This document shows positions 1 to 48,870 of a stretch of 48,870 nt of DNA, one piece after another (position 1 is the stretch's first letter; each line of letters begins with the position of its first letter). The stretch spans positions 1 through 48,870 of the IMG/VR virus record IMGVR_UViG_3300043446_001953; one strand, written 5' to 3'. Source of the stretch: a virus. The position numbers and the translations under genes are program-made. Under the pieces are notes generated by a model. It was given only the letters and a program-made list of their open reading frames with translations. It was not told the origin of the DNA and did no database searches.

Positions 1-350
1 TCCTACGGACCGCTTCAAGACAGGAATAGCCATCGATGCGGGCCATCCAATCACCACGTTGGTGAACTTAGCCACCATCCTAGCCTCTTCGCTGAGCGGA
101 ATCCTAGAGCCGTTCTTCAGCGAAAGCCTTTCGAGCATGGACCTGCCCATGTGCTCTGGACGGATTGCCACGACACCCTGAGCCCTATCGACGATTTCCT
201 GACCAAGTGCGCTGGCGTATTCAGTCAATGGCTTAACACCCAGTGAGAACAGGGTAGAACGGATAGGGGAAAGGGAAGCCGCACCGCCTCCGACAATCGT
301 CTCTCCAGCGTCTGCCAGCATCGTATTTGCGGCGTTCCTGATGACGTTTG
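1..350. repeat. Terminal direct repeat, left copy
   Basis: Bases 1-350 repeat at 48521-48870 with 346 of 350 identical. The differences are at 94, 175, 220 and 223 in this copy, all transitions. The repeat lies inside the giant gene and both copies keep the same reading frame. It shows that the contig closes on itself, through a circular map, terminal redundancy or headful permutation. Confidence 0.95.
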
Positions 351-2246: not shown

Positions 2247-2247
2247 G

Positions 2248-17721: not shown

Positions 17722-18344
17722 CACTGAGTTGCCTCCATGTTTATGCCCTTGCCGATTGTCATGGTTTCTGGGGCATTGGACTGCATTGCGGCTCCAGTGA
17801 AGTTCATGGTTCCGATGATTGCTGGACCGCAAATCCTAGGATGTGGACCAATCGAAGGGACATTCGCAATCGGCATCTCCATCATCTCCTTAAGCGTCGA
17901 CATCCCAGTGAAACTCTTCGACAGGGACGGAATGCTGAAATTGGAACTTACCCTAGGTGCGCTAGGTGGTGAATAGGACGGAGCACTTTCCTCCTCGTCT
18001 CCTGCCTGTTCGTCCCCTTGGGACGAACCACGTTTTTTGGAAACGTTGAGCGAATCCAGATAATCCATGTCCCCTCGGTCCTGAAGGGATTCGACGGACA
18101 TGACTCCTTGGTCTGGTTTCTTCGAAAACCTGTTGAGAACCTGATAGGACTCTACGTTCTGGTACAGGTCTGACCTTCTGGTGAGAAGACCGCTCTGGTT
18201 CTTCACCCAACCAAAAGACTCCAGCCTCCTGCTGGTCGCCTTTTCTCTGGCGAACACAACAGGCTCTGGTCCCGAACCAGACTTTTTGGTGGGGTCAAGT
18301 TTTGGGTTCCCCTCGGAGGGAACCATCTTGTCCCCATCAGCCAT
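17721..18344 (-). CDS. Unknown protein upstream of terminase (207 aa)
   Basis: No family recognised. The N-terminal half is charged and disordered (MADGDKMVPSEGNPKLD). It includes a segment with SRRLESFGWVKNQSGLL and an acidic Ser/Pro linker (~105-130). The last ~70 residues are Met/Ile/Pro-rich with low charge (IANVPSIGPHPRICGPAIIG), perhaps a small membrane-interacting or beta region. Joined to both neighbours by TGATG overlaps, it probably belongs to the head-assembly or packaging set. No small-terminase HTH is seen. Confidence 0.75.
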   Translation of the reverse strand: MADGDKMVPSEGNPKLDPTKKSGSGPEPVVFAREKATSRRLESFGWVKNQSGLLTRRSDLYQNVESYQVLNRFSKKPDQGVMSVESLQDRGDMDYLDSLNVSKKRGSSQGDEQAGDEEESAPSYSPPSAPRVSSNFSIPSLSKSFTGMSTLKEMMEMPIANVPSIGPHPRICGPAIIGTMNFTGAAMQSNAPETMTIGKGINMEATQ

Positions 18345-23965: not shown

Positions 23966-23970
23966 TTTAA

Positions 23971-30938: not shown

Positions 30939-31010
30939 AGCCTCATCGTTCAACGGATAGGACAGGCGTTTCCTAAACGCTTAATCTAGGTTCGATTCCT
31001 AGTGGGGCTA
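30939..31010 (+). tRNA. tRNA-Arg (anticodon CCU)
   Basis: Complete cloverleaf. The acceptor stem is AGCCTCA/TGGGGCT (one G-U pair), the D stem GTTC/GGAC and the anticodon stem GGCGT/ACGCT with loop TTCCTAA (anticodon CCT at 30972-30974). The T stem CTAGG/CCTAG has loop TTCGATT. CCA is not encoded, unlike the two tRNA-Pro genes. It reads AGG, the main Arg codon sampled in the giant late gene. Confidence 0.95.
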
Positions 31011-31430: not shown

Positions 31431-32192
31431 CTACTGTGCCGTCGTCGTATTTGGGGTCAAGCGACACTTCATGTCCTTGTGGGAAATCCAGTACGCCCAA
31501 GAGCCCCAAGCCAAAGCGACCAAAGCCACGCCAGCGGAAGCCCAAGGGAACCAAGCAGACTCAACGACGTCACGGATGACGAATGGGGCGCCACCGAAGA
31601 AGAGCGATAAGCCGATGAGGATGAAGCCACCGCCCTTGCCCTTACCGCCTGTGAAGGTCGAGATGACCAGCAACCCAGCACCAGCGAACGCAAAGACGCC
31701 AGAGAGCATCAGGAACTTGCTCCTGAGGTCTGCCCACTCCATCTCCTTGTGCTTGGCGTCCAAGGCTGTCTTCAAGTCCCTGTTCTGCCTATCTAGGTCG
31801 TCCACCATGCCGTAAAGGGCTGTGGTCTCGGCGTCTACCCTCTCTGCCCTCTCCTGCTCGGCTTTGAGGGCTTTGTCGTCCTGCATAGCCTTGGCGTACC
31901 GCTCCAAGCCTTCCTTGGTAGCCTTGCGGATGCCAGCCAGCCTGTCAGCCGTAAGGACGACCAGAGCCTTGCCCTTGCCGTCGATGTGCTCCTTGGCGAC
32001 TGTGAGGGCTGATGCGCCCTCTTCGGCTTCACGTTCCAGTTTCTCCACGTACTCGTCCTTCTTGGCGTTGTCCACGACCTTGACCTCTGGGAGGTCAATG
32101 GACGGACAGCCAGTTAGAAGAGCAACGAGCCCAACACAAGACCAGCGAAGAAGGAACCTGCGAAGAGGACCTTGTACTTGTGGTTCGTCCAT
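31431..32192 (-). CDS. Lipobox-containing spanin-like membrane protein (253 aa)
   Basis: An N-terminal signal with lipobox LVALLTGC (Cys at residue 28) predicts an outer-membrane-anchored lipoprotein. Residues ~45-145 are charged, helical and coiled-coil (VEKLEREAEEGASAL, ALKAEQERAERVDAETTALYG). Then come about three hydrophobic helices: LMLSGVFAFAGAGLLVIS, GGGFILIGLSLFFGGAPFVI and WASAGVALVALAWGSWAYWI. A lipoprotein end plus a C-terminal membrane anchor is the logic of unimolecular spanins, which fuse inner and outer membranes. Classical u-spanins have one C-terminal anchor, so extra helices are unusual. It is the last gene of the late train. Confidence 0.65.
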   Translation of the reverse strand: MDEPQVQGPLRRFLLRWSCVGLVALLTGCPSIDLPEVKVVDNAKKDEYVEKLEREAEEGASALTVAKEHIDGKGKALVVLTADRLAGIRKATKEGLERYAKAMQDDKALKAEQERAERVDAETTALYGMVDDLDRQNRDLKTALDAKHKEMEWADLRSKFLMLSGVFAFAGAGLLVISTFTGGKGKGGGFILIGLSLFFGGAPFVIRDVVESAWFPWASAGVALVALAWGSWAYWISHKDMKCRLTPNTTTAQ

Positions 32193-32198
32193 AGGTAG

Positions 32199-32540
32199 TT
32201 AGCGATTTCCTTTAGTTTTTCCATAGATGCGTATGTAGTTTCTACCTACGACGCCAGCAAGTACAATCAGCCCGATACAGGCAATCATGTAGCAGACCAG
32301 TTCGTAGTTCTGTATGATTTTCTCAACAGTCCGTAGGTCGACTGTCACCTTGTCCGTGGTGATGCCGTTGTCCGTGACGATTGCCACTGCACTGTCCCTG
32401 TCCCTCAAGGCATGGAAGCCGTCGTTGACAGGCGATGTAGCCATGTACCCAGCCAAGCCGACCAAGAACAGGATGGTCGCTTGGACTGCGATGATGAGTT
32501 CAGATACGTTTGCGCTTTGGCTTGGTTTCTTGCGTGACAT
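32199..32540 (-). CDS. Membrane protein with two transmembrane helices (113 aa)
   Basis: Begins MSRKKPSQSANVSELIIAVQ. Helix one is ~13-33 (SELIIAVQATILFLVGLAGY) and helix two ~82-100 (VCYMIACIGLIVLAGVVGRN). A soluble loop of about 45 residues (DSAVAIVTDNGITTDKVTVD) lies between them, with a basic tail. No family recognised. It overlaps the holin-like gene by 41 bases. Location between holin-like and spanin-like genes suggests a lysis accessory (antiholin or second holin) role, by context only. Confidence 0.6.
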   Translation of the reverse strand: MSRKKPSQSANVSELIIAVQATILFLVGLAGYMATSPVNDGFHALRDRDSAVAIVTDNGITTDKVTVDLRTVEKIIQNYELVCYMIACIGLIVLAGVVGRNYIRIYGKTKGNR

Positions 32541-32847
32541 GGTTGAGGAGTCTCCTTCTTGCGATTTCTACGAGTTCTGGTGCGCAAGTACCGCACAAGG
32601 AATAGAACAGGGCTTCGTGCAACGGCTCGATGCGACCATGCACCACGAAGTACCCGAGCACACCGACGATACCGCCAGCGATGATGCGTCGTATCCAGAT
32701 GACCACAGGCAGGTGCTCGTCCGTCAGCAACAGACGGCACAATGCACCAGCCATACCAAGTATGGACACAATCCAGCCACCCTGCTTAAGGTCCTTAGCC
32801 GCATTCAGCAGGTCGTCATTAGGGGGTTTCGTCATCGGTGTATGCAT
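32500..32847 (-). CDS. Holin-like membrane protein (115 aa)
   Basis: Begins MHTPMTKPPNDDLLNAAKDL. Hydrophobic stretches lie at WIVSILGMAGALCRLLL (~26-42), VVIWIRRIIAGGIVGVLGYFVV (~47-68) and LHEALFYSLCGTCAPELVEI (~75-95), with a basic tail. The pattern GGW..S..G...R.L....+....RR...G...G resembles phage holins of the P21/LydA-like group, which make the membrane lesion for lysis. A shorter start at 32835 (MTKPPNDD) is equally plausible. It overlaps the giant gene's end by 29 bases, or 17 with the shorter start. Confidence 0.7.
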   Translation of the reverse strand: MHTPMTKPPNDDLLNAAKDLKQGGWIVSILGMAGALCRLLLTDEHLPVVIWIRRIIAGGIVGVLGYFVVHGRIEPLHEALFYSLCGTCAPELVEIARRRLLNHVTQETKPKRKRI

Positions 32848-35800
32848 TGCTTGCCCTGTTGGTGAACGTTGCGACCCTCTTCAGAGTCTCTAGGAGCATC
32901 GGGTTAGCCTTCGGCTTCTCAAGCGGGTCACCGCCGACCATCAGGTGGGCGATGCCGTCGATAGCCTTCTTCCTCCATGCTTGCCTATGCTGTTCGGTCG
33001 GGAATCGAGGCTTGAACCTCATCAGCGTGACGCTGGCTACGTCCATGGATGCGATTAACTTCTTAGCCTGTTCGCTCTTCATCGGGATACCGCGCTTCAT
33101 CAGCATCAAGGCAAGAGCGGAGGCGGTGCTTTGGTAGCCAGTGTACAGACCTTTGTACTGCGGTCCAGTAGGTGCGTCTTCGATTTGCGATGCGTCCTTG
33201 CTGATTAACAGCGTCTTCTTTCCTCGTTCCCTAGTCTGTGCGGTGTAGTCCTTGAAATCGGGGAACTGAGACAGTCCGTTCCTAGCATCTTCCGTAGGAG
33301 TTCCAGAGAAGACGCTGATGTTGTCGGAGATGAGTCCATCCTTGGACTGACTGCCCCAGTTGAAAGCCGTCTTGATGTAACCGCCTAATGGTCCGTACTC
33401 CTTCTCGAACATCTTGATGTAAGGATTCCTGCCCCTGTATCTGGACAACTGGGAGTACAGTTCGATGGCATGCTCCTTGTCCCTAGTCCTGCCGATTTCC
33501 TTTGCGGTCTTCGGGTCTAGGAAGATGAACTCACCATCCCTCATGTCCATAACTGGTCGGTCGAACGAGTCCGTGCTGAGCGCCTCAAGAGCCTCCTTGG
33601 ACTGACCAGTGAAGTGGAGTTCCATGTAATGCATCGGCAAGCCATAGTTGCTTGCGTAGCCCCACTTGTTGCCAGCCTCCACAATCATAGCCATCTGACC
33701 GATGTTCATGGCAGATTGGTCGATGAGCCTTTGGTTCTGGTTCTTTTCGCCACCCACCAACTTGCCGTACTGATTTGTGAAGAACTTCGAGCCAGCCTGA
33801 CCATCTGGAGTCTTGTACTTGATTGGCTTTCCGTCAGGACCGAGAAGGTTGGACTTGCCAATGTAGGCGGTACCCATCATCGCCTTGAACCTCAAATCGG
33901 ACGGAGTCGAGAAACTTGAGTTGACCAAGATGATGTGCTTGCCGTGCTCTGGGTGCTCTTCGTTCAGGATTCTCTGTGCGTCCATGAGCATGCCGAACAC
34001 GTGCTTGTCGATGTCACCAGAGGAGCCAGCATGGTCGAAGATGAATCCACCGCTCATCTGCTTTACCTCCTCGCTCGTCAGGTTCTTCAGCCTTTCGTAG
34101 AAGTTGCCATAAGCCCTTTCCTTGATGTCCTGAGGAAGCGACTCGAACAACGCCAGCGCTGGCAAGACTCCGCTATGCGAAGACAACAGCATGTACCTAT
34201 CCTTGCCTACGAAACCAGACGCAATGTATTCGCTATGGTTGCCACGTGTGAAGTGGTGCCTTGCGTCGGTCATGCCAATCTGGTCGTAACCTACAGCAGC
34301 AGCCTTCATCACAGTGCTATGCAACGATACGTTCCTGTAGATGTCCTCGACGCCGAAGAACATGGACGTAGAGATGTGAGGTTTTTCACCGCTAGAAAGC
34401 GGCACAATCTTCTGCATCTCCTTGATTTGAAGTTGGATGGCATCGAGTTTGGCCCTAGACGTGGCACCGCTGTTGTAGTTAGCCACAGGCAACGCCACGC
34501 TAGCGATGGTCTTGCCTAGTGCGCTGACGTAGTTGCCCCTAGGCATCAGACCATAAGACCAGTCATGCCTGTCGCTAACAGGAATCCTGAAGTCAGGTCC
34601 GTAGTTACCGAAGCCGACCAAGTTTCCGAGGAACGAGGCGTTGCCGTCGTAAGGGTCCCAAGAGGCATTGAACAGCCTTTCGTCGGAAGCGAAATGATTG
34701 AAGATTTCGCTCCTTGCATCGAAGTTGTTGGTGCTTAGCGAGTTTCCGTCATGGAAAAGAGCGGTCAACTTCATGGAGTTTCCTTGAGTCTTGAGCATAG
34801 CCTTCATTTCGTCGGATGCGGCTCGCATAATCCTAAGATGGATTAACTTGTCGGCTCCTTCAAGGTTGTGACCACCGCTCAAGGCGTATTGCTCGATTCG
34901 CTTGTCAACCTCCGCAATAGCCCTTTGAGCAAGCGACTCGAAGTCGAACGTGCCATACTCGTAGTTCATGTTCCAACTTTCGAGTATCTGGGGAGAAGCC
35001 ATTGCGAACGCCTCATCGTCTGCGATGACGTCCATCAACAAAGACCTAATGGTAGCCTCCGAGGAGCCAACCTTTTCCTTGGTGCTCATGTGCAACTCAT
35101 GGAGTGCATGTGCAATCTTGAAATGCACGGAGCGCACCAACTTATCAATAACCCAACTATCGCTCACGCTCTGGGCAATCTGCCTAAGTTCGGCGGTTGC
35201 GTTTCCGTTCTTGGCGTAGACTCCAGCCATTCCCTGACCATCGAAGTCGAACTCATACACAGGAATCTCTGGTTCGCTGATGACAGACCTGTAGGACTCT
35301 GGGACTTTTAGCCTACGACCAGTGTCCTTGATGAACCTGCTTTGGTTGCGCAGTTCCATGACCTTGAATCCGTTCACGAACGCATACATCTCGAACGGAG
35401 AAATCATCTCCATTGTCCTCCTGATTAGACCTCGGTTAACCTGTCTGCTCAAGCCCTTCCTGTTGCCCTTGATTTCTTGGGTGCCTTGTTCGATTGCGTG
35501 TGCGCAAGATTCGGTATTGGCAAGCAGTTTGTCATAGGACTCCTTAAGAGCCACCAGTTCGTTGCTCTTAAGCAAACCTTCGATTTGGGCGAAGTCTTCT
35601 GGTAGCGTCTCAGTTGGTTCGGACGGAAGACCAAACCTCTTGTACTGGAATGGGTCGGACTGGATTTCCTCGATGACGATGAGCGGTTCCCTAGAGGGCT
35701 TGGTGCCAGCAAGAGGATACCTTTCGTCGGTGAAATGGTCTTCGTGGATTGCGAGACCATTGGTTTCGTTCAACGAGATGCCTTCGGTCACACGCAGGTG

Positions 35801-38800
35801 ACCAAGTTGCAACGTACCATGGGGATTGTTTCCGTAGTGACCTGCGTCCCAGACGTTGCCAGCCCTGACAATCCTATCCCTGATTTCCATGACAGCCCTT
35901 GCTCCAGCGATGATTTTGTTGATGCGCTCCTTCTCCGCTGGGTCGAGCGGGGTTTGGGTAAGGGCGGTGAGTTCGTCGATGTACTTCTTGTACTCAGCCT
36001 TCTGCCTAGTGGTATGCTGTTCTACCTGCATGACCTGACTGGTGTAAGGTCCGTAGGTGGAAGCCCAGTCGGAGTGGTCTCTGTCATGCTTGAACAACAG
36101 ACCCATGTTCCAAGCGGCAGATGGGTTTGTAGGGAAGGTGTTACCTAGCGTACCGCTCTTTCCGTAAGGACCGCTTTCCTTTCCGTAGGTGATTAACTGT
36201 GAGTAGGTAAGGTTGGTCATCTCCTGACCGATGGTAGCCAGAGAGTAGTCCCATGGGTCTACAGTGGCTACGTTGCCTAGGATTTCGTTTACAGTCTTGC
36301 CGATTGACTCGACCTTCTTTGCAAGGATTTCCTCCTGAATGGCATGCAGATAGGCAGGTCGGATGGTGATGTTCGGACCAGTCTGCATGTTCTCTGGGGA
36401 CATGTCGGTGCGCTGAAGCATGTAATGAGCCTGTAGAGCCTCGATGTTCTCCTTGAACGTGCCACCCCTAGTGTCTGGCATCTCGTTCACCAGTCCATGT
36501 TCGACCGCAATCCTAGAGAGAGAACCGCTTGCGGCTTCCTCAGCCAACTTGCTCTGTGCGACCACAGTCTCGTCTCCGCTGGCTTTGCCTTGCTCGATTG
36601 CCTGTGCGATTGCATGCAGATTACCGAAGTACCTTTCGGTTGCCGTCTGTGCGTTCTTCGCCAAGTCGGAGATGAATGGGAAGTGGATTCTGCTTGTGCT
36701 ATTATGTTGATGGGTATTCGGGTCAACAGCCGCCCTGATTTCGTGCTCAAGCCTTGTGTTCCTGCTAATCCTCATCGTCTGCGGATACAGGGTGTAGAGG
36801 AACTCGGCAAGTTCCTGCCTAGACAGTTGCTGGTCGTACATGTGGTGTAGCAACACCGCCAGACCGCTCTGCCTGATTTCATCCTTACTGACTTGGTTCT
36901 CCTTGATGTGCTTGAACCATTCTGCACCAGTCATCGAGTGCGGGAACAGGTCCCTGCCAGTCTTCTTCTTGGCGTAAGCGACCACCTTCATCAACTTCGA
37001 CGAGAACTCGAATGGTCCGTAACCAGAGCCGAAGTTCAACTTAGCCCTAGTGAGGTTTTCGAGTTCAGATGGGTTCCTGTCGCCAACCATCAGGTTGGTG
37101 CGGGACGTGGACAGCGCGTCTGGGGTTTCGAGCATCTTGGCTACAGCCTGAGCGTCAGCCTTCTTCTCGAACACCTTGTCCAACTCGCCTACTCGGAAGC
37201 CAGTCCTTGCGACGCTACCGACAATGCCGTATTCGTTTGCTCTGACAGAGGAGAAATCGGTAATCAAAGCCTTAACCATCGGGCTGTTCTCGCCATGCTG
37301 TTCGATTGTCCTGATGTCCTTCTGGGTCTCGTTGCTCATGGAATCCAGAAGCATAGCCAACTCAGCCTTGCTGGTGGACACGGAGAACTTAGCCCTGAGA
37401 GCCTCAGCCTCTGGCATCGTCTTGACCATGACGACCTTTCTGGAAACCACAGGTCTGCCAATCTCGTCCATGCCAGTGACAGTATTGTAGCCGACCAGAT
37501 AGCCAGACACCTTGCCCCTAGCGCCAGCGGTGTAGTCCTTCTTTGGGACGATTGACACGTTCGCATCCGACCTTCCATCCCATGCGTAGTTCTGGAGTTC
37601 TGGTCGGTTAGGGAACATCAGTTCGATTGCGGATGCCTTGTCTCCGTTCATCGCAAGGATGCGCTCCGTGGGGGGCAGGAAGTAACCGCTGTCCTTGGAC
37701 GCAATCATACCGCATAGGTTATCCAAGTCATCCATCAGATGCGGATGCATGGCAGACGCCAACTGTGCATGGGCGCTGAGTTTGCGGTAATGAGCCGAGG
37801 ACGCTTGGGATGTTTCTCCCCTCCTGAGTTTAGCAACCACAGACGAGAACGGCATGACAGACTCTTTTTGAACGACAGGCTGAGAAGGGTTGTCTGCGAA
37901 CTCTAGGGATTCGCCAATCCTGTACCTTTGGGACGAGGAATCCAGATGGGACATGCTTGCTAGTTCTGGGTTAACTCGGACGATGTTCGAGTTCGACAGG
38001 ATGGAATGCATGCCGTTGCCTACCACCAGATGATGGAGGCTAGCCCTGATAGCCTCGATTGGGGTATTGGGTCTGAACGTGACTGTCACGTAGTCAGCAC
38101 CAGTGTTGTGGTGGATAAGACCATACGCACCAGAGACGTGGTCCCTGTTTGATGCGTCCGCTTCTCCTGCAAACACGGCTTCGTACGCCTGATAAGACCT
38201 TAGTGCGAAACCTTCCATGCCCAATGCGGACGCCCTGAAGTCCCTAGTTTGTGCATACCCGCCCTTGGCAATCTGGTTCGAAGCCTTGACGATTTCCTTA
38301 GCCCAAGCAGGACCGCCAACCTTATGGGTGAGGTTATTGAACAAGTCGATGCCTTGAGGAATGCTACCAGAGTTGATGTGTGGGCTGTGTGGAAGGATTG
38401 TATCCGTGTATGGGTCGAATCCGACGCCTTCCTTGATGCTGAAACCTAGGTTGAACTTGCCTTCCTTGAAGAAAGTCCTGTCGGAGCGATGGTGGGTTGC
38501 GTACTTGGGGGAATGGATGTCACCGCTGACGTTGACGACGATGCTTCCATCCTCAAGTTTCTTGAAGGCGAATCCATACTGTGGCTTGAAGCCAAACGGA
38601 GCATGCCTGTAGGGGTCGCCACTTCCTTGAGCAGCCTTCCTCTTGACTTCTGCACTGTATTCTTGGTTTCCAGAGAAATGTGCACCTGTCATTTCGGTCA
38701 TTTCGGGATTGGCAAGACTTGAATAATCAGAGGCTCCAACGCCGATGGACATTGCTCCGATGTTAAGGAGGTTATGGGTGAACTCCACACCACGCCTACC

Positions 38801-41800
38801 AGAAGCGCCCATAGATACCACAGGTGTGCTGAACTCACGACGACCAGACATGGAGAACCTTGCTGGCTCGATGGCTACGTTCCCATTGCCCCTGCTTGCT
38901 AGTGAGGAAAGGTATTCGGTCATACGCTTCCTTACGAACATCCTAGACAAGGAGGTGCCAGCGGAGATTATGTTGCTGTTGGAAACGTTGCTCTGAATCG
39001 CTTCCTGTGTGATTGAAGCGGACCTAGAGTTGGAATCCGACAGGACGTCCACAGGTTGGAGGAAGGTCTGTCCCATGCCCATACCGCTCCTGACCAACTT
39101 CTCCTGCTTCCTGTTGGACTTCTGGTCGAAATGCCTGACGAACCTCTGGTTCTCAAGGGCATGCAACCTCTCACGGAGGTTAGCACCATCGACGGAAATT
39201 TTGTTGTGGTCATAGGTATTGTCGATGCCAGACGAAGCCGCTTGGGTCTCGTCGATTGAAACGTAAGAATAACTTTCCCTGTTCACGAACTGCATGGAGT
39301 CGGAGTGAAGCACTCCAGCGCCGTCCGTCTTGCTCAACGATGCGATTCCTTCTGGCGTGGTGACGTTCTCATGCTTTACGCCCTCAAAGTGGTCCATGTT
39401 CTTTAGAGCCATGACATACGAGAAGAAGAACTCCCTGTTCATGCATGCCAATGCGCACTCCCTGAGGTAGGAATGCGAATAGCCCTCCATCGAGTTGTCA
39501 GATGGGCTGACGTCCTCGTTTAGTCCCTTTTCCCAGAAAGAACCGCCATCCCTAACGTACGTTCCGATAGCCTTCTTGAGTTCCTCCTTGAAGTTTCCGT
39601 TGATGAGTGCGTCAAGGTGGACGAACTCTGCGTCTGGAATGCCGTCAAGGACGCTGAAGGCACTGAGGATGCCGACCGATGCGTCTACATGCGTACCGAT
39701 GGTTCCGTTGGCTACGTTGTTTGCGATGCACGACGCCTGAGTACTGCTCAAGGAATCGACGAAACTTCCCACATCCCTGTATAGTTGTGCAGCCTTCTCT
39801 GGGTCTGCCACAAGTTCTGCGTAGGTGCTCTTGAACATGTCGTTGTACCACTCCCTTTGCGTTGGAGTGAAGATGTCTGCGGTATCGGCTAAGCCATCCC
39901 TGAAAATGACCTGCTTTTCGGACATAGCCTTGGCGAAGAACGGAGCGAACACAGGGGCTAGTTGAGCCATGCTGTGGAATTCGTAGTCACTCATCCCATA
40001 CTCCCTCTCCATGGCAGAGATGTAATGGTTCGAATGGTTCTTCAGCATGTCGATTAACCTGCTGTTCGCACCACCCTGAACTAGGGCATTTGAGATAACC
40101 TGTGCTGAAATGCCCCTTCTTGCGCAAAGTTGGTACAATGCCGAGTGAATGGCGTGGTTACCGCTACGCATCAACTTCCTAGAAGGACGCAACCTAGCGG
40201 AAGGTTGAGACCTCGACCTACCATCGATTCCCCACGGAGTCAGCATGTTAAGATGACCGATTGAAGCCCTAGAGGAATCCAGCATGTTCTGGTAGAACTC
40301 ACGTGCAGTCCTGACCACGTTTCCATTCTCGTCGACGATGTCTCCGTTCATGAGCACGACTCGCTCGTAGTCATTCCTCATGAATGCGGTGCTCATGTCC
40401 CCAAGTTTCCTCACGGACGTAGGGCTCTGTACGGCTGTCTTCTTGCCAGAATAGATGTATGGCAAGTTGGTCAGACCAGCATGGCTCTGGTATGCGTTGA
40501 CCCTGACAGGCTCAAGGTTGGAAACAACGTAGGTGCCATCCTTGGCGACGAACGCATTGGTACCAATCAGGCTCTGGACGCTACGAACCCTAGAGTGCGG
40601 ACCAGCGGTTCCCCTATCCAGACGTGCAATCTCCGTGAGAGCATCGTACCTGATGGAAACGTGAATGGCGATGTCAGACAAGTCCCTGACCTTCTTAATT
40701 AACTCATCATACGTTCCCCTGCTTGCGTCATCTCGGTCCAAGTACGACAACGCAGATACGTATTCATTTGCGATTTTGCTCAGCGCTAGGATAGTCTGGT
40801 TAATCGAACCATAGTGCCTACCGACGCTTTCCATCATGAAGGCGGCAACCTGCGAGTTGGATGGCTCTTCGTATCCGTAGATTGTGTTCGCTAAGTTAAA
40901 AGTACCCCTACCTCTGCTCAAGTTAAGCGGAGTGTCTGAATGCCAGTTGTATTGACCAGAGTCATAGCCCCAAGCGGATGGAATGTGCATGCCTACCGCT
41001 GGATTTTGCACGAACCTTGTTGCTACCATGCTTACGTCTGAAGCAGCCATGGTTCCAAGGGCATTGATGTTAAGGGCAAGCGCACCAAAGGGTCTAGGAG
41101 ACGTTTCGTAACCAAACCTCTTGTTTCTGGACGCTACGTCAGAAGACGGATTCGGGATGTTAGTAGGTAGCATCCTGTCGCTCTGACCATTGCTCAACAG
41201 CATCGCTTCCTGCTTCATCGCCACTTCGTTGAGAAGCACGTCGCTAAGCATGGAAACCTTCATTTCGTTCACCTTGTCCTGCGAGACGTTGACCTTGCCT
41301 TCGTCGATTGCCTTAGCCATCTGCTCGTAGAACGGCTTGATTAGGAAGAGTTTCCTAGCGAACCTTTCGTTAAGTTCGCTAGCCTTTTCATGCATCGCAT
41401 TGATTACGCTTTGAGGGATTCCGTCCATTAATTCCGTAGACAGGCTTGTGAACCTGCTGGCTTCAGCACTTGGGACGATGCCCTTTTCCCTGAGCCTTTC
41501 GCTGAGCGAAGCCCAAGCATCGGCGTCAATCCAATCGGGTCTTGCGCCCATGTTGAACGAAATGCCAGAACCAACCGCCGAGAAGAACTTGGTCCTCTTG
41601 GTGGCAAGTTCCACTTGAGACTGGAAGCCAAGGTCACCTTCCCCATTGAACACCTGTTTGACGATGGACGTCAAATCGCTAGAATTAAACGTCTTGATGA
41701 GACCGAATCCGATTTGCTGAGGATTCAGTTTCGCATCCTTGATTGCATTCATGAGCCTATCCTTGCCGAAGGAACTGCCCATGACGTACTCTGCGGTGAT

Positions 41801-44800
41801 AATCTGGTGGTTGATTGCCAGAATGTTGACAAGTTCCTGCTTGGTGTACGTTACGTCTTGGCTCGATACCCTGTCCGTAATCGCATCGATGTTGCCGAGC
41901 ACCAGACCATCCTGACTGATGCCCCTTTCGAGCAACAGGTTCTTGAGGTCTTTTAGTTTTACGACGGCTGGGAAGTCATCCTGCATGACCAAATTGATGG
42001 ACTCAATTGGGGTCTCGATGATTTTCTCCATCGTGATTTTGGCGTCCAGCAACTTTGCTAGGCTTTCGAAGGACATCGTGTTCTGATTACCTTCGTCCAA
42101 TAGGTTGGCGATGATTGCGCCCTTAGGAATTCCAGAATCAGAAACCCTGTCGCCAGAGTTGCTAATCGACGAGAACCACGGAACTCTCCTCAGGATTTCC
42201 TTGCTCCTTTCGGAGGGCTCACTGTCCAATTCGTTGTTTATGTTCTTACGCTCTTCAAGGTCGGGAATCCTTTCCTTGATGACGTCGCCAATCCTGCCTT
42301 CTTCCTTAAGTTTGGACATCACCTCATTGGACGGCTGAATCTCAGCGGTCCTGAAGATGAGCCTGACCTTTCCGTTCTTGTCCACCTCGAAGCCAGAACT
42401 GGTCACGGCAATCCTCCTCAACAAGGCATAGTCCTTGTTAATCATCGTGAGGTGGTGGGACACAGTCGAAAGCCTACCAAGATAATTGAGGGCGTCCTCT
42501 GGGGTGTAAGACTTCTTGTATTCCGTTACGCTCTCGCCCCTGCCAAGACCGCCGACCATCAGATTGGAAGTGCCGTAGGTGCCGTAAGCCCTAGCCAAGG
42601 CATGGCTATCCGCTCCGTCGTTCAGCAACCTGCCTAGTTCTGCGATGCTTGGACCAAAGCCGTTGCTTTGGGTGACGACGCTTTCGAAGCCTTCGATGCC
42701 AGACCTGACGTAGCCAGTCTCGGTTGCGGAAGCGTTGAGTTGCTTCTGGGTCAACTTGCGCCTCTTGCCAGTCTGGGAAGCCTGAACCTCATGGGGCTGA
42801 GCCAAGTACTGCATCCAGCCGAAGTTATCCACCATGGTCTTCAGGACGATGGAACCAGAGGTCTCGTCGGAAAGCCATGCTTCGTCTCCAGACCTTTCGT
42901 AGGCGGTCATGGTACCGATGACCTTGTTCAGGTACATTGAATCCCAAGGTTCGTCCAGAATGATTGTCCTTCCAAGTGGTGTTCCGTTAAGTTCCTGCTC
43001 AGCCGCAGTGCGAGCCTCTAGGAACCTGTAGTAGACGGAGTCGGCAGAGCCAGCAATTCGGACTGCGGCAGTAGCCTCGTCGATTTCGCCCCTAGTCAGC
43101 ATGTCGCCGACTTCACGTGCTTCCTTGGCAATAGCCATTAGGATGTTGGAGTGCTTGATTGCCAGTTCCTTGTCTGGGAATCCGTCTGGGGCTTGGGCGT
43201 ACTCATCGTGCAACATCATCGCAAGCGACGAGGCTACCCTGTGCATGGCAGGAACAGCCATCTTACGCACCCTATGGTGCATAGGGGAATTGAACATCTT
43301 CCTGACGGAATCGATGGCGTCGTATGCCGAGACGTCAGCCAAGGAATTGGCGTCACCAGTAATCATCTCGATTGCTTCCTTGTCCAACTTGGAGCCTTCC
43401 TTGTCGTAGGTGATTCCGTCTGCACCAGAAATCTTGCCCATCAGATACTTGAACACGCTCTTGTAGGCGTTCAGGTTGCTGATTGAGGAACTGTCAATCC
43501 AGCCTTCCTCCATCTGGATGGCATGCTGAACCTCATGCAATAGGACTTCGGTTGCGCCCCTGTCTGTATCGATGCCGAACTTCTGTGCGTCTAGAGCCCT
43601 CTGGGTTTCGGTAAGTTCCGAATCCAGACCAATCTCATGACCGATGAACCTATCGATGCCTAGCGTGATTGATTTGTCGCCCCTGTTGAACGAAGCACCA
43701 TAGCCTTGGGTAAACCTGACCTTGATGTCACGTGCCTTAGGATAGAACTTGTACAGCAGGTCATGGTGTAGGATTTCCTCCAAGTCCATGACTGGAATGC
43801 TATTGGCAATCAGACCTTCGACACTGGTGCCAAACTTCCACATCATTAGGGCTTTTGCAGCGTCTACATTGCCAATCTTCTTTGACGTTTCCCTAGCCTG
43901 TAGATAACGCTTAAGGAATTTCTGCCTCTTGTCCTCGTCGGCAATCCTGATGAACGGCAACTTGGAGATAGAGCCTTCAGCCGCATGCATGTTCAAGGAC
44001 GCAGAAGCGTCGGTGAACTCGAAGGACTTGTAGACGTTGCCCCTGCTGTCCCTGAAGTAACGAAGCATGCCAGCGCCTTCCATCTCCATTTCCTTGGCGG
44101 TAGATGCCCTGAAACCACCGACCATCAGGCTTGCACCATTGGTGACTACAGGAACTGGTCGGTCAATCTTCATTCCAGAAGCGTCCATGCCTTTCCTGAT
44201 TTTGGCTACGACCTGAGCAATCTTGAACGCATTCTTATCCTTGCTGGTGTTTGCTAGGGTCTGTGGAGAATAGACGTTCTTCCCCAAGTTGAATAGGGAC
44301 TCCTCGCCATTTTCTGTAAGCGTAAGCACAATCTTGGAGTAACCATCGTTGATTAGGTTAGGTCCAAGAACGTCAGCAACGGCTATTGGGTCGTAGATTC
44401 TGCTTTCGTCTAATTGATTGCCAGTGTTCGCAACGTCGTAGGCATCCTTGTAAAACTTAAGCAATCTCTGACCTTCGGCAGTCTGGTTCCTGATTTCGAT
44501 GCCTTTCATGATTTCCATGGCACCCTCAGCCATGTTGAAAGCCATCCTACTTCTGGCGTCTTCAAGACCCCTGTCCCAAAGAGCATCCTTAAAACGCTCA
44601 ACGCCACCAATAGTAGTCAGTTGCTGTAGGTCGTCCTTGCTGATGAATTGGAACGTCGATGCAACCTCCTGAAGCATCCTGATGTGCTCAGAATCCCTGA
44701 TGATTGAAGTGTAGGATTCGCCATGCCTTTCGGAGCCAAGGCTGATGTCGTTCAGTTCAAGGAATGGAGCGGAACCAGAGAACAGAAGCGCGGTTCCGAT

Positions 44801-47800
44801 GTCGGTCATCACATGGTCTGCCTTGTATCCAGCCTTCGTAAGGACGTGCTGGTCCAAGGAAACTCCTTCAGTAGTTTGAGAGCCTCCTTGAAGTTTGTTA
44901 CCTTGGTGCTTTGCTATGGTTTTCTTGTCAATCTTGACGAACGAAGAGGTAGAAACCCCGCCATGAGTTCCGATTAACGCAGAATTAAGCGACTCATTGA
45001 AAGGACCAGCAAACGACAGGAACAGGAAGTCCTGAAGACCATCTGCTAGGTTTTCGTTCTGGATTTCAAAGTTTGGAATCTCTGGTCTGCTGGCAAGAAC
45101 GTTGTTACTGGAATTCCATGCCTTGTCCCTTCTTTGTTGCGCTGGGTCGAAGATGGTTGTTTTCGCAATCCTGAAATTACCTTGTTGGTCTACCCTGTCT
45201 CCGACCTTGCTGATTCCATGGAAGAACCCGCTTGCTCGCTGAAGGAAAGTCTTTACGGCATCCCATTTCTTGCCAGAAGCGTCCGCATTGCATGCCTTTA
45301 CGATGGATTCTGGAAGTTTGAGCAACGCCCTATCCGCTACAAAAATAGAAGCCTTGCCTTGTGAAATGATGAAAGAACTGGGATTTTGCCCAACAAACGA
45401 ATTAACCAAAGTCCTAGCCCAGTTGTCTATTTCTTTCCTAAGCGTAGTTCCCTTTGTGCCAAACTCACCTGCGAGCGTATTAAAGTAATCCTTCTTTGGG
45501 TCGTGGTAGGAATTGTAGATGTCTTGAGCGGCAACCTTCTGCTCTTCCTTGAGCCATTCCTTGAACGTTCCGTTCTGATTTCCGTTCTTTCTCCACTCCT
45601 TGAACCTGTGGTTGATGTTTGCGACACCCCTAATTGCGGCAAAGTAAGCCAGCCCGCTTGGGGTGTTCGACCTTACCTGAAGCAGGTGGGCTGGTAGGTC
45701 TCCCTTCTTGTGCGAGAGGATTTTCTGGAACTCTGGCTGAAGAAGCGTAATGATGTTCTTCACGAACTTCTTGGAGCGAACGAGCCTCTTGCTTACGCCC
45801 AAGAACAGTTCATGGTTCCTTCCGAAAGGAAGACTTTGGTACACGTCTCCTGCGACGCTTTCATGGCTGTAGACCTTAAGTTCCTTGAAGTAAGGATGTA
45901 CGTCTAGGAACCTCCTGCCGTCTGGATTGTCGCCAACCAACTTGTCGATGGTGATAGTAGGGTAGTCAAAGGTATATGCTTCGGTTCCATACTCGTTGCC
46001 AGTCGGAGACAACTTCAGGGTCTTGTTGATGAACTCAATCAGGTCGATGTTGTTCTTTTCCTGAATCCCAAGCCTATGTCGCTTTCCGTCATCTCCTACC
46101 ATCAGGTTTGTCCTGCCAGAGAACACTTCGGCAAAGGATGGGTTCGTGTCTACTTCCTTGTCTGGGATTGGGGACTCGCCAGCGACGCTTGGGGAGAAGT
46201 CTAGTGGGTCGGATTTACCAGCATGCTTGGAGGCTCCGATGAACGCCTTTTCGACGCTTGGGTAGATTCCAACTGAATTACCGAATGGGCTGAACAGCCT
46301 GAACCTAGTGCCGTCAGTCCTTACCTCGTAGCCAGCGCCGTTGGACCAGAACTTTTTCTTGTTGTCCAATTCATGTTCCCTGAATCCAGAGCCGACCATG
46401 AAGTTCCTTCGGATGCCTTCGTAAGCCTGTTCATGACCATATGGAAGGTTGCCTAGGTTGTTGCCAAAGGTCTCTTGGAAGACGCTGGTCTGCTTCTCAA
46501 GGTTAGCCAACAGTTCGAACCTGAGGGAGTGGAACGGATAGTTTGGACCATCCGCATTGCCCTTGTATCCGTCCGCAGGGATGTTGATGAAGCCTTCGTC
46601 GACTCTCTTGCGACCACCGAAGGTTTCGTACATGATGTCCCTGACCTTAGCCGCATCGGAGCCAAACTCCTTTTCGAACAACTTGGCGGTCTCGACCCTG
46701 ATTCCAGTGGGCTTCGACATGTTGTGCATGTAGTCCGTGAAGGTCCTAGTGAAGTGACCGAAGTCCCTGAAGATAGCCCTCACGTCAGCCCTCTGGTACA
46801 TCCTAGTGCGACGCCTGTTAAGGACGGCTACGTCGACGGCATGCAGGGTAACGTGACCCTTTGGCTCCCTAAGTTGCTTCCCATTTTCGTCGAACTTGTC
46901 GAACCTGAGTTCTGCGGCAAACGGCGAGAAATGCCTGTAGGTAACAGGAACGTCCTTGCCAGTGAGCCTTTGGACCAGACTGCCCCTCTGTACTTGATGG
47001 GTCCTTCCTAGGTACTGACCCATGAAGACGTTGAAGACTGGCTTGCCAGAACGGATGTCTCGGATGGTTTCGCAGATGCCACGAAGTTCGTCGATTTCCG
47101 ACTTGGTCATGTTGATGTTTCCGACCAACGAATCCCAAGCGTCCTTCGGAACGTTCGTTAGGTCGACCTTTAGGTTGCCTCCCCTGTCCGTTTCGAACTT
47201 TGGTCGCTTGGAAGGGTCCATGCCCTGCCAGATTTTGACCATCTTTTCTGCATTCTCCGTGATGAGGGCGTCGATTTCCTTCCTGTCCTTCATCACCTTT
47301 CCTCCCTTTGCAGCCGTACCAAAGCGAACCTTGTTGGTGGACTTAAGGAAGGCATCCGTGCGCTCTGGAGACATGGTATAGACGTCTACGTCTCCATTCC
47401 TGAGGCATCGCCTCATCACAGTCTCGCTCCACTTGTCCAATGCGGGAAGGCTCCTATACGTGCCGTCTTCCCACATCATCGTCTCAAATACTGGTGCTCC
47501 ATCCTTTCCGACGTTCCTCAAAATCAAACCAGACATCTCAGCCTTAGAAACGAGCCTCTGGTTAATCATCGTATGGAAGTTCTCCAGATGATGGCTAAGG
47601 TTTCTTGCGTCTTCTGGATTCCTAATGAAGAAATCTGGAGCCCTCAGCAGTTGCTGATTCGAGATGTTGTAAGCAAAGGTTTCGTGAATTCCATGCCAAA
47701 TGTCGGCATAACCAATGTTCTGCTGTGGGTTAATTTCGTGAATCTTAATGCTTCCAGAAGCCCTTTGCTGCCTGATGGACTTAATTTGAGTGAGAATCTT

Positions 47801-48870
47801 ATTTGCCCTGTCCGTAATCAAAAGTTCTTTCACCTTTGTCGGAGCGTCAGCGGGCATTCCTTCAGCCCTCAACCTTTGTTCAGCAACCAATGCGGCAATG
47901 GCTTCGTCCTTGAGTATGCCTTCCCCAGATTCATTAAATCCATAGAACTGTTCCATGAACGAATAGAAGTCCATGGAATCGGTCTTTTCCAAGTGGTGGA
48001 GCATGCCGTGTGCAGACTCATGAAGCATGGCTTCTGGAACAGCCATGTCCTTGTTAATCCAAATGATTTGCTTGGTTACTCCGTCCTTATCTCTGGCAAA
48101 ATCGAATGTACCCTTAGAGTTGTTTAAGACCTCAACAGGCGTAGTTCCACCAAAAGCGGGAAATTCCTGCCTAAGTTCTTGAGCGGATACGAACCGAAGT
48201 TCCTTTTCCTTGTCAACAGACCACAACTGCATCCAGTTAGCCCTGACAGTTGCAGAGACCCTCTGGTCGTTAAGTTTGTCCGTGAACTCGACGATAGCCC
48301 TTAAATTGGCACCATGCCTAGGAGAATTCTTTTCGATTTCGTTTACTTGGCTTTCCCAGTTGTCGATGATTGCGCTGTGTACAGAGTCTCCATTGTACAC
48401 GTTATGCATGTGCCTCAGGGCTCCACTAATGCCACCCCAAGCGAAACCAACGCCCATTGCACCAGCCGCACCTTCGCCTCTGGCGTTCAGGTAGCCAAGG
48501 ACGCCCATGTATGCGGCGTCTCCTACGGACCGCTTCAAGACAGGAATAGCCATCGATGCGGGCCATCCAATCACCACGTTGGTGAACTTAGCCACCATCC
48601 TAGCCTCTTCGCTAAGCGGAATCCTAGAGCCGTTCTTCAGCGAAAGCCTTTCGAGCATGGACCTGCCCATGTGCTCTGGACGGATTGCCACGACGCCCTG
48701 AGCCCTATCGACGATTTCCTGACCAAGTGCGCTGGCGTACTCGGTCAATGGCTTAACACCCAGTGAGAACAGGGTAGAACGGATAGGGGAAAGGGAAGCC
48801 GCACCGCCTCCGACAATCGTCTCTCCAGCGTCTGCCAGCATCGTATTTGCGGCGTTCCTGATGACGTTTG
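32819..48870 (-). CDS. Giant polyvalent protein, main part (joined length 5,673 aa)
   Basis: Open from the right window edge to a TAA at 32819. Joined to 1-1320 it encodes 5,673 residues, and the numbering below uses the joined protein. Residues ~430-480 are hydrophobic and Gly/Ala-rich, possibly membrane-active. HESAH at 607-611 is a zincin-type HExxH. A second zincin-like module around 2030-2110 ends in LLHEVQHAIQ (His2102, Glu2103, His2106), matching the HE(V/I)QHAIQ site known from large polyvalent proteins. A HLRVTE segment followed by IVIEEIQSD (Glu4724-Asp4729) matches another module of that group. LMVG(G/D) recurs around Met1247, 1906, 2428, 4251 and 5634, with FMVGS at 1148. Polyvalent proteins are thought to be packaged, injected and possibly processed to counter host defences. 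That role is inferred here, and the enzyme activities are predictions from short motifs. The C-terminus overlaps the holin-like gene. Confidence 0.9.
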   Translation of the reverse strand, partial: NVIRNAANTMLADAGETIVGGGAASLSPIRSTLFSLGVKPLTEYASALGQEIVDRAQGVVAIRPEHMGRSMLERLSLKNGSRIPLSEEARMVAKFTNVVIGWPASMAIPVLKRSVGDAAYMGVLGYLNARGEGAAGAMGVGFAWGGISGALRHMHNVYNGDSVHSAIIDNWESQVNEIEKNSPRHGANLRAIVEFTDKLNDQRVSATVRANWMQLWSVDKEKELRFVSAQELRQEFPAFGGTTPVEVLNNSKGTFDFARDKDGVTKQIIWINKDMAVPEAMLHESAHGMLHHLEKTDSMDFYSFMEQFYGFNESGEGILKDEAIAALVAEQRLRAEGMPADAPTKVKELLITDRANKILTQIKSIRQQRASGSIKIHEINPQQNIGYADIWHGIHETFAYNISNQQLLRAPDFFIRNPEDARNLSHHLENFHTMINQRLVSKAEMSGLILRNVGKDGAPVFETMMWEDGTYRSLPALDKWSETVMRRCLRNGDVDVYTMSPERTDAFLKSTNKVRFGTAAKGGKVMKDRKEIDALITENAEKMVKIWQGMDPSKRPKFETDRGGNLKVDLTNVPKDAWDSLVGNINMTKSEIDELRGICETIRDIRSGKPVFNVFMGQYLGRTHQVQRGSLVQRLTGKDVPVTYRHFSPFAAELRFDKFDENGKQLREPKGHVTLHAVDVAVLNRRRTRMYQRADVRAIFRDFGHFTRTFTDYMHNMSKPTGIRVETAKLFEKEFGSDAAKVRDIMYETFGGRKRVDEGFINIPADGYKGNADGPNYPFHSLRFELLANLEKQTSVFQETFGNNLGNLPYGHEQAYEGIRRNFMVGSGFREHELDNKKKFWSNGAGYEVRTDGTRFRLFSPFGNSVGIYPSVEKAFIGASKHAGKSDPLDFSPSVAGESPIPDKEVDTNPSFAEVFSGRTNLMVGDDGKRHRLGIQEKNNIDLIEFINKTLKLSPTGNEYGTEAYTFDYPTITIDKLVGDNPDGRRFLDVHPYFKELKVYSHESVAGDVYQSLPFGRNHELFLGVSKRLVRSKKFVKNIITLLQPEFQKILSHKKGDLPAHLLQVRSNTPSGLAYFAAIRGVANINHRFKEWRKNGNQNGTFKEWLKEEQKVAAQDIYNSYHDPKKDYFNTLAGEFGTKGTTLRKEIDNWARTLVNSFVGQNPSSFIISQGKASIFVADRALLKLPESIVKACNADASGKKWDAVKTFLQRASGFFHGISKVGDRVDQQGNFRIAKTTIFDPAQQRRDKAWNSSNNVLASRPEIPNFEIQNENLADGLQDFLFLSFAGPFNESLNSALIGTHGGVSTSSFVKIDKKTIAKHQGNKLQGGSQTTEGVSLDQHVLTKAGYKADHVMTDIGTALLFSGSAPFLELNDISLGSERHGESYTSIIRDSEHIRMLQEVASTFQFISKDDLQQLTTIGGVERFKDALWDRGLEDARSRMAFNMAEGAMEIMKGIEIRNQTAEGQRLLKFYKDAYDVANTGNQLDESRIYDPIAVADVLGPNLINDGYSKIVLTLTENGEESLFNLGKNVYSPQTLANTSKDKNAFKIAQVVAKIRKGMDASGMKIDRPVPVVTNGASLMVGGFRASTAKEMEMEGAGMLRYFRDSRGNVYKSFEFTDASASLNMHAAEGSISKLPFIRIADEDKRQKFLKRYLQARETSKKIGNVDAAKALMMWKFGTSVEGLIANSIPVMDLEEILHHDLLYKFYPKARDIKVRFTQGYGASFNRGDKSITLGIDRFIGHEIGLDSELTETQRALDAQKFGIDTDRGATEVLLHEVQHAIQMEEGWIDSSSISNLNAYKSVFKYLMGKISGADGITYDKEGSKLDKEAIEMITGDANSLADVSAYDAIDSVRKMFNSPMHHRVRKMAVPAMHRVASSLAMMLHDEYAQAPDGFPDKELAIKHSNILMAIAKEAREVGDMLTRGEIDEATAAVRIAGSADSVYYRFLEARTAAEQELNGTPLGRTIILDEPWDSMYLNKVIGTMTAYERSGDEAWLSDETSGSIVLKTMVDNFGWMQYLAQPHEVQASQTGKRRKLTQKQLNASATETGYVRSGIEGFESVVTQSNGFGPSIAELGRLLNDGADSHALARAYGTYGTSNLMVGGLGRGESVTEYKKSYTPEDALNYLGRLSTVSHHLTMINKDYALLRRIAVTSSGFEVDKNGKVRLIFRTAEIQPSNEVMSKLKEEGRIGDVIKERIPDLEERKNINNELDSEPSERSKEILRRVPWFSSISNSGDRVSDSGIPKGAIIANLLDEGNQNTMSFESLAKLLDAKITMEKIIETPIESINLVMQDDFPAVVKLKDLKNLLLERGISQDGLVLGNIDAITDRVSSQDVTYTKQELVNILAINHQIITAEYVMGSSFGKDRLMNAIKDAKLNPQQIGFGLIKTFNSSDLTSIVKQVFNGEGDLGFQSQVELATKRTKFFSAVGSGISFNMGARPDWIDADAWASLSERLREKGIVPSAEASRFTSLSTELMDGIPQSVINAMHEKASELNERFARKLFLIKPFYEQMAKAIDEGKVNVSQDKVNEMKVSMLSDVLLNEVAMKQEAMLLSNGQSDRMLPTNIPNPSSDVASRNKRFGYETSPRPFGALALNINALGTMAASDVSMVATRFVQNPAVGMHIPSAWGYDSGQYNWHSDTPLNLSRGRGTFNLANTIYGYEEPSNSQVAAFMMESVGRHYGSINQTILALSKIANEYVSALSYLDRDDASRGTYDELIKKVRDLSDIAIHVSIRYDALTEIARLDRGTAGPHSRVRSVQSLIGTNAFVAKDGTYVVSNLEPVRVNAYQSHAGLTNLPYIYSGKKTAVQSPTSVRKLGDMSTAFMRNDYERVVLMNGDIVDENGNVVRTAREFYQNMLDSSRASIGHLNMLTPWGIDGRSRSQPSARLRPSRKLMRSGNHAIHSALYQLCARRGISAQVISNALVQGGANSRLIDMLKNHSNHYISAMEREYGMSDYEFHSMAQLAPVFAPFFAKAMSEKQVIFRDGLADTADIFTPTQREWYNDMFKSTYAELVADPEKAAQLYRDVGSFVDSLSSTQASCIANNVANGTIGTHVDASVGILSAFSVLDGIPDAEFVHLDALINGNFKEELKKAIGTYVRDGGSFWEKGLNEDVSPSDNSMEGYSHSYLRECALACMNREFFFSYVMALKNMDHFEGVKHENVTTPEGIASLSKTDGAGVLHSDSMQFVNRESYSYVSIDETQAASSGIDNTYDHNKISVDGANLRERLHALENQRFVRHFDQKSNRKQEKLVRSGMGMGQTFLQPVDVLSDSNSRSASITQEAIQSNVSNSNIISAGTSLSRMFVRKRMTEYLSSLASRGNGNVAIEPARFSMSGRREFSTPVVSMGASGRRGVEFTHNLLNIGAMSIGVGASDYSSLANPEMTEMTGAHFSGNQEYSAEVKRKAAQGSGDPYRHAPFGFKPQYGFAFKKLEDGSIVVNVSGDIHSPKYATHHRSDRTFFKEGKFNLGFSIKEGVGFDPYTDTILPHSPHINSGSIPQGIDLFNNLTHKVGGPAWAKEIVKASNQIAKGGYAQTRDFRASALGMEGFALRSYQAYEAVFAGEADASNRDHVSGAYGLIHHNTGADYVTVTFRPNTPIEAIRASLHHLVVGNGMHSILSNSNIVRVNPELASMSHLDSSSQRYRIGESLEFADNPSQPVVQKESVMPFSSVVAKLRRGETSQASSAHYRKLSAHAQLASAMHPHLMDDLDNLCGMIASKDSGYFLPPTERILAMNGDKASAIELMFPNRPELQNYAWDGRSDANVSIVPKKDYTAGARGKVSGYLVGYNTVTGMDEIGRPVVSRKVVMVKTMPEAEALRAKFSVSTSKAELAMLLDSMSNETQKDIRTIEQHGENSPMVKALITDFSSVRANEYGIVGSVARTGFRVGELDKVFEKKADAQAVAKMLETPDALSTSRTNLMVGDRNPSELENLTRAKLNFGSGYGPFEFSSKLMKVVAYAKKKTGRDLFPHSMTGAEWFKHIKENQVSKDEIRQSGLAVLLHHMYDQQLSRQELAEFLYTLYPQTMRISRNTRLEHEIRAAVDPNTHQHNSTSRIHFPFISDLAKNAQTATERYFGNLHAIAQAIEQGKASGDETVVAQSKLAEEAASGSLSRIAVEHGLVNEMPDTRGGTFKENIEALQAHYMLQRTDMSPENMQTGPNITIRPAYLHAIQEEILAKKVESIGKTVNEILGNVATVDPWDYSLATIGQEMTNLTYSQLITYGKESGPYGKSGTLGNTFPTNPSAAWNMGLLFKHDRDHSDWASTYGPYTSQVMQVEQHTTRQKAEYKKYIDELTALTQTPLDPAEKERINKIIAGARAVMEIRDRIVRAGNVWDAGHYGNNPHGTLQLGHLRVTEGISLNETNGLAIHEDHFTDERYPLAGTKPSREPLIVIEEIQSDPFQYKRFGLPSEPTETLPEDFAQIEGLLKSNELVALKESYDKLLANTESCAHAIEQGTQEIKGNRKGLSRQVNRGLIRRTMEMISPFEMYAFVNGFKVMELRNQSRFIKDTGRRLKVPESYRSVISEPEIPVYEFDFDGQGMAGVYAKNGNATAELRQIAQSVSDSWVIDKLVRSVHFKIAHALHELHMSTKEKVGSSEATIRSLLMDVIADDEAFAMASPQILESWNMNYEYGTFDFESLAQRAIAEVDKRIEQYALSGGHNLEGADKLIHLRIMRAASDEMKAMLKTQGNSMKLTALFHDGNSLSTNNFDARSEIFNHFASDERLFNASWDPYDGNASFLGNLVGFGNYGPDFRIPVSDRHDWSYGLMPRGNYVSALGKTIASVALPVANYNSGATSRAKLDAIQLQIKEMQKIVPLSSGEKPHISTSMFFGVEDIYRNVSLHSTVMKAAAVGYDQIGMTDARHHFTRGNHSEYIASGFVGKDRYMLLSSHSGVLPALALFESLPQDIKERAYGNFYERLKNLTSEEVKQMSGGFIFDHAGSSGDIDKHVFGMLMDAQRILNEEHPEHGKHIILVNSSFSTPSDLRFKAMMGTAYIGKSNLLGPDGKPIKYKTPDGQAGSKFFTNQYGKLVGGEKNQNQRLIDQSAMNIGQMAMIVEAGNKWGYASNYGLPMHYMELHFTGQSKEALEALSTDSFDRPVMDMRDGEFIFLDPKTAKEIGRTRDKEHAIELYSQLSRYRGRNPYIKMFEKEYGPLGGYIKTAFNWGSQSKDGLISDNISVFSGTPTEDARNGLSQFPDFKDYTAQTRERGKKTLLISKDASQIEDAPTGPQYKGLYTGYQSTASALALMLMKRGIPMKSEQAKKLIASMDVASVTLMRFKPRFPTEQHRQAWRKKAIDGIAHLMVGGDPLEKPKANPMLLETLKRVATFTNRASNAYTDDETP
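48521..48870. repeat. Terminal direct repeat, right copy
   Basis: Right copy of the 350-base end overlap. The four differences from the left copy fall at 48614, 48695, 48740 and 48743. Each is at a third codon position of the giant gene and keeps Leu, Gly, Glu and Thr respectively. Synonymous differences look like strain variation rather than sequencing error. The unique genome is therefore 48,520 bp. Confidence 0.95.

Follow-up and report, generated by a model that had tools for sequence, protein, structure and literature searches.

The virion RNA polymerase of phage N4 is a protein of about 3,500 aa. According to the survey by Iyer et al. (2017, PMC5512222), this polymerase belongs to the polyvalent proteins, the zincins of which are predicted to process them; P1 DdrB is processed, and the N4 polymerase, which carries such a zincin, is packaged uncut. 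The giant phage protein analyzed here resembles the polyvalent proteins of that survey in being very long and apparently multi-modular and in the position of its gene beside virion and lysis genes, as well as in a zincin of the form HE.QH...Y.....E..A preceded by an LPD23-like region, an EEIQSD block and a second zincin with an HExxxH variant in one clade.

The giant gene and the phage family that carries it

The window, that is, the whole stretch of DNA that was analyzed, comprises the 48,870 nucleotides of IMG/VR virus record IMGVR_UViG_3300043446_001953. Its two ends (1-350 and 48521-48870) are the same 350 bp with 4 differences, all synonymous, and the window therefore looks like a circular assembly from a phage population with a unique genome length near 48.5 kb; the four differences between the copies suggest that this population was mixed. 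Similar end overlaps occur in several relatives. Across the contig join, a minus-strand frame leads from 1320 to 32819 through 17,022 bases, from ATG to TAA, and its 5,673 codons (32819-48520 joined with 1-1320) contain no internal stop. Translation thus bears out the uninterrupted frame put forward in the initial annotation, with the start of the gene at 1320 and its end at 32819 because the coding strand is the minus strand. The full-length chain would weigh about 620 kDa. The annotated setting, after genes of internal-virion type and before lysis genes, was likewise recovered, the neighbors being the 236- and 321-aa genes on one side and the holin- and spanin-like genes on the other:

1..1320, minus strand: giant gene, start ATG at 1320 and codons 1-440; single open frame
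32819..48520, minus strand: giant gene, codons 441-5673 and TAA, continuing from 1-1320 over the contig join; single open frame
1317..2282, minus strand: conserved 321-aa gene just upstream of the giant gene, in 20 of 21 relatives, without family hit
2248..2958, minus strand: gene for a Gly-rich 236-aa protein, from position and composition
10868..12295, minus strand: major capsid protein (PHROG 1328, E=6e-34; 77 related loci)
16093..17832, minus strand: large terminase (PHROG 2, E=3e-17)
31431..32192, minus strand: spanin-like lipoprotein or coiled-coil gene, from sequence and position
32500..32847, minus strand: holin-like small membrane protein just downstream of the giant gene, from sequence and position; in 14 relatives

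The 321-aa product is a probable internal virion protein, and the Gly-rich product, by position and composition, is probably an ejection-type or internal virion protein. The virus is a tailed phage, probably short-tailed. Elsewhere in the window, a 697-aa gene (2963-5056) and its 196-aa neighbor (5058-5648) are not conserved in relatives even though they lie inside the conserved virion gene block, and are perhaps host-recognition genes. No separate prohead protease gene was recognized; the 338-aa gene that precedes the capsid gene has an acidic, scaffold-like product. Three tRNA genes are present (23891-24045 and 30939-31010), tRNA-Pro(TGG) and tRNA-Pro(GGG) in tandem and tRNA-Arg(CCT), the last of which adjoins an ERF-family recombinase gene.

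A search of IMG/VR with the capsid protein yielded 77 related loci, about twenty of them on contigs of 46-52 kb. Of 28 related IMG/VR contigs, 27 have a match to the central half of the giant protein, and the long frames of these contigs are free of stops, which rules out a chance open frame. Compared with its nearest relative (dN 0.13, dS 0.54), the frame is subject to purifying selection. In the 18 near-complete genomes, window included, the frame encodes 5,563-6,459 aa and takes up 34.6-39.8% of the contig, in agreement with the third of the genome annotated here; the supposition that a single genome was exceptional in this respect has to be given up, since a whole uncultured phage family has the giant gene as a fixed trait. 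None of 50,697 GenBank phages matched the giant protein by megablast or tblastn, and no relative emerged when genome contigs of bacteria and archaea were scanned for a host. Among cultured phages, the nearest capsid proteins are about 23-29% identical, and the nearest terminase 33%.

Junction peptides and their clade dialects

The tetrapeptide LMVG, which the initial annotation did not remark on, occurs five times in the giant protein, against 0.06 expected, and a sixth place reads NFMVG. Alignment of the protein to 20 and then to 38 relatives placed these peptides at six orthologous positions in near relatives, five of which are found in all clades:

46388..46405, minus strand: junction site 1, NFMVGS, aa 1146-1151; orthologous in alignments; pLDDT <50
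46091..46108, minus strand: junction site 2, NLMVGD, aa 1245-1250; left edge of segment 3; pLDDT <50
44114..44131, minus strand: junction site 3, SLMVGG, aa 1904-1909; right edge of segment 3; pLDDT <50
42548..42565, minus strand: junction site 4, NLMVGG, aa 2426-2431; orthologous in alignments; pLDDT <50
37079..37096, minus strand: junction site 5, NLMVGD, aa 4249-4254; orthologous in alignments, with concerted letter changes
32930..32947, minus strand: junction site 6, HLMVGG, aa 5632-5637; 36 residues before the C-terminus

Only the first three clades (A-C) show site 2 clearly, and it cannot be placed in the four more distant ones, although G009, G013 and G014 have a similar FM[LV]xG a few columns upstream. 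The overall consensus is [L/M/F]-[M/Q/S]-[V/I/L]-[G/A/S/T]-[G/D], and its letters vary between clades while agreeing between the sites of one clade, so that each clade can be said to use its own dialect:

NLMVGG: the window, G001, G002, G021
NMMVGG: G003, G004, G006
NLMIG, with LMLGG and LMPSG: G005, G007, G008, G022
FMIGG/LMAAG: G009, G011
xQITG at sites 1, 5 and 6: G010, G019, G020
FQLTG/LMASG: G013, G014
xSIGG/xSVGD at every alignable site: G012, G015, G017, G018 and eight more (the 12-member clade H)

Thirteen alignment columns hold M in clades A-C, and six of these are junction-motif columns. In clade H, all five alignable motif columns have changed to S in every sequence, as against none of the seven other M columns; similarly, L in clade A has become M in clade B in 5/5 motif columns and in 11/202 other L columns. 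The former contrast (Fisher p=0.0013, by hand arithmetic) and the agreement between sites by clade (permutation p<=5e-5, clade labels shuffled site by site) carry p values that are only indicative, because the clades are few and genome pairs overlap. Clade-specific matrices turned up no convincing further copy in other open reading frames, and the motif is confined to the giant protein.

The motifs might be thought a structural signature of module starts, kept for folding or as duplicated linkers, with nothing that reads them, and at sites 3, 4 and 5 they do adjoin conserved downstream starts. The flanks, however, are unlike between sites, for which reason gene conversion cannot explain the concerted letters either, and letters that change together at five places in the same lineages are not what independent folding constraints predict. 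We therefore regard such a signature as very improbable.

AlphaFold models were obtained for aa 540-1260 (pLDDT 73) and aa 1860-2470 (pLDDT 66). All four modeled sites (1-4) fall in segments with pLDDT<50, which make up 13% and 22% of the residues in the two models, and are thus predicted to lie in low-confidence, disorder-like linkers, a low pLDDT that may also reflect shallow alignments. Site 1 is flanked on either side by conserved sequence, which makes it a less typical free linker. In most of the near genome pairs subjected to change-point analysis, identity switches at aa 1194-1264 and 1890-1924, and 16 of 32 divergence breakpoints lie <=30 aa from a junction site (1.8 expected), in pairs that share genomes and are hence not fully independent. 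These breakpoints concentrate at sites 2 and 3, and the segment between them is therefore a hypervariable or exchanged cassette:

44132..46090, minus strand: segment 3, aa 1251-1903, hypervariable cassette between sites 2 and 3, without PDB match

Between G007 and G008, for instance, identity is 62%, then 26% (aa 1194-1917) and then 95%, and the switch to near identity falls on the junction motif itself. Segment 3 is nearly unrecognizable between phages that are otherwise 95% identical downstream. As a candidate host-specific effector cassette, it is worth screening for effector function. Taken over the whole protein, the sites are repeated, co-vary and stand at module boundaries, as in a processed polyprotein of viral style.

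Zincins and the proposed processing

Sites 3 and 4 bracket a segment that carries one of two zincin motifs in the protein, and an EEIQSD block lies further downstream:

42551..44116, minus strand: segment 4, aa 1909-2430, LPD23-like region and zincin metallopeptidase bracketed by sites 3 and 4, from hhalign; candidate processing protease
43523..43537, minus strand: zincin 2, HEVQH, aa 2102-2106, invariant as HE[VIAM]QH
42761..42808, minus strand: Y.....E..A.....R block, aa 2345-2360, with invariant Y, E, T and R
48008..48022, minus strand: zincin 1, HESAH, aa 607-611, in the conserved N-terminal segment; HExxxH in one clade
35654..35671, minus strand: EEIQSD, aa 4724-4729, in segment 6, with invariant E, E, Q, S and D

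The core residues of HEVQHAIQ (aa 2102), EEIQSD (aa 4724) and the second HExxH (aa 607) are invariant in 21 genomes, except that the motif at aa 607 is HExxxH in one clade (G012, G015, G017 and G018), a variant described for polyvalent zincins (Iyer et al. 2017, PMC5512222). Searches of Pfam, PHROGs, NCBIfam and PDB with the window protein and its alignments returned chance-level hits only, in keeping with the annotated impression that most of the sequence matches nothing, and no catalogued LPD or other Pfam domain reaches its cut-off in the window protein. No RNA polymerase domain was recognized by the Pfam, PHROGs, NCBIfam and PDB profiles, a very diverged one being possible. Both polyvalent motifs named in the initial annotation, HEVQHAIQ and EEIQSD, are nevertheless present, the latter within a region H-R...IEEIQSD that is common to the giant protein and two other polyvalent proteins. 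Kinship of segment 4 with polyvalent zincins is visible only profile to profile: in a single hhalign comparison with a set of ten zincin regions of other phage giants, in several of which Pfam LPD23 exceeds its cut-off immediately ahead of the zincin, it gives Prob 99.5 and E=3e-23, with a match that spans both LPD23 and HEVQHAIQ. Zincin 1 does not match this set. The Y.....E..A block of segment 4 has its counterpart in the Y....GEVEA of other polyvalent zincins, and Glu2351 within the former is the probable third zinc ligand of zincin 2, so that segment 4 has both the HExxH and the C-terminal Glu of a polyvalent-type zincin. In structure prediction, advised at the outset together with profile-profile comparison, Foldseek found no significant PDB match, and no solved zincin, for either model. 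The HEVQH helix of the segment 4 model (pLDDT 66) is preceded by three strands, an arrangement described for the zincin fold, and a viral structure library gave polyvalent-protein domain hits with E 9e-5 and low TM-scores.

A zincin between two copies of its own putative site, four more sites in the same chain and co-variation by lineage are best read together as a self-processing polyprotein, and we consider it reasonably probable that the giant protein is a polyvalent polyprotein cut at its junction peptides, probably by its own zincin. The six short peptides would mark the joints between modules and be read by one shared factor, the likeliest reader being a protease and most likely the zincin metallopeptidase of segment 4. 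About seven products would result, with roughly 1150, 100, 655, 520, 1825, 1380 and 37 residues; cutting would take place prior to packaging into the head, in the course of it or after entry, and the products would be carried in the capsid and injected. Carriage and injection are suggested by the position of the gene and by the precedent of polyvalent proteins such as the N4 virion RNA polymerase and the P1 Dar proteins; like cleavage and the role of zincin 2 as the protease, they are inferred. Of the one long, probably injected protein that had been proposed, size and polyvalent kinship hold, whereas the evidence points to a segmented polyprotein instead of one functional chain. If correct, this would show how a phage with a 48-kb genome delivers many proteins from one gene.

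The peptides could also be cut by another protease, be it zincin 1, a host enzyme or an unrecognized phage protein. Zincin 1 comes close to zincin 2 in conservation, and no part of the protein is better conserved than the N-terminal segment in which zincin 1 lies, but it is zincin 2 that sits between two sites. Among the conserved genes we recognized no separate protease, though most of these genes are without family hit, and dialects that differ between phages do not suggest one fixed host specificity. We give this alternative a low probability.

The main rival is somewhat less improbable, yet still unlikely: the six peptides would be docking motifs by which an intact chain tethers its modules to one shared partner, such as the portal, the core or a neighboring virion protein (e.g. 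the 321-aa product), for packaging or ordered ejection. Concerted change and restriction to one protein would be expected of a common binding partner as well, and the unprocessed packaging of the N4 virion RNA polymerase both favors docking and counts against cutting. On the other hand, a chain with six docking motifs, the last of them 36 residues from its end, would be unusual, and the placement of the peptides at module edges and around the zincin segment fits cutting better.

Other phage giants and known systems

Peptides of a comparable kind are found in an unrelated phage giant of 4,821 aa (L259; the same frame is held by L195, L198 and L261), which has nine ILKASGAxP-like peptides ([DE][IL]L[KRNM]AS[GA]A.P-like), most of them in linker-like stretches. 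A 57% relative (L262, 3,477+ aa) keeps at least six, and three HExxH motifs occur in these giants. Possible junction peptides of their own were also noted in other zincin-bearing giants, namely YQAS (five copies, L293), RFSLAPA (three, L289), and, in L275 and L277, P.G.TFS (three) and PxILxQ (five, three of them in one N-terminal stretch). Across about 25 distant polyvalent proteins, fixed patterns of the FS[LIV] type were not significantly repeated in most, and the remaining polyvalent giants examined gave no significant repeat, so that a general polyprotein claim stays a lead. It may tentatively be put as follows: phage polyvalent giants would generally be modular polyproteins with lineage-specific peptide codes (NLMVGG here, ILKASGAxP in L259 and L262, perhaps YQAS in L293 and RFSLAPA in L289), a co-evolving internal zincin that reads these codes, and effector cassettes swapped at the joints by recombination.

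The polyproteins of adenovirus and African swine fever virus are cut at (M/I/L)XGG|X-like sites by cysteine proteases, which belong to another family. The polyprotein logic and the hydrophobic-x-Gly-Gly look of the clade A motif are reminiscent of these sites, a resemblance only; an adenovirus-type cleavage motif was discarded, since it does not accommodate the sites of clade H (xS[VIL][AG][GD]). The prohead proteases of tailed phages, such as SPN3US gp245 with its A-X-E motif (PMC10052503), likewise apply one specificity to several sites and are coupled to head maturation, but they cut many separate head proteins, mostly removing propeptides, at a different motif, whereas the motif of the window is confined to one protein. 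In the Hollowayvirus (F116-like) phages, the PLxRFG giant (e.g. 3,782 aa in Baskent_P6) similarly precedes holin, lysozyme and spanin genes and has two HExxH motifs, one of them HELQHAIQ; in contrast to the protein studied here, no repeated junction peptide was found in it, and its C-terminal family NF032893 went undetected in the window protein. PLxRFG itself was dismissed as a repeated motif, being present only once in Baskent_P6 and F116. With the N4 virion RNA polymerase the giant shares late expression, a zincin region and, presumably, carriage in the capsid, which is established for N4; it differs in its lack of a recognized RNA polymerase domain and, if it is indeed processed, in not being packaged uncut (PMC5512222).

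Compared with the polyvalent proteins in the available part of the same survey (PMC5512222), most of the chain matches no catalogued domain, its 5.6-6.5 kaa are encoded in genomes of 46-52 kb, and it has co-evolving junction peptides, of which that part holds no description. Neither such peptides and their agreement with cassette borders nor the sequence recognized by polyvalent-protein zincins was found described in the literature searched, the coverage of which is incomplete. With six natural sites, clade-specific dialects and a candidate protease between two of them, the family makes zincin specificity addressable. Polyvalent proteins and their zincins are already known, and what the present family would add to them is co-evolving junction peptides that agree with the borders of a variable cassette.
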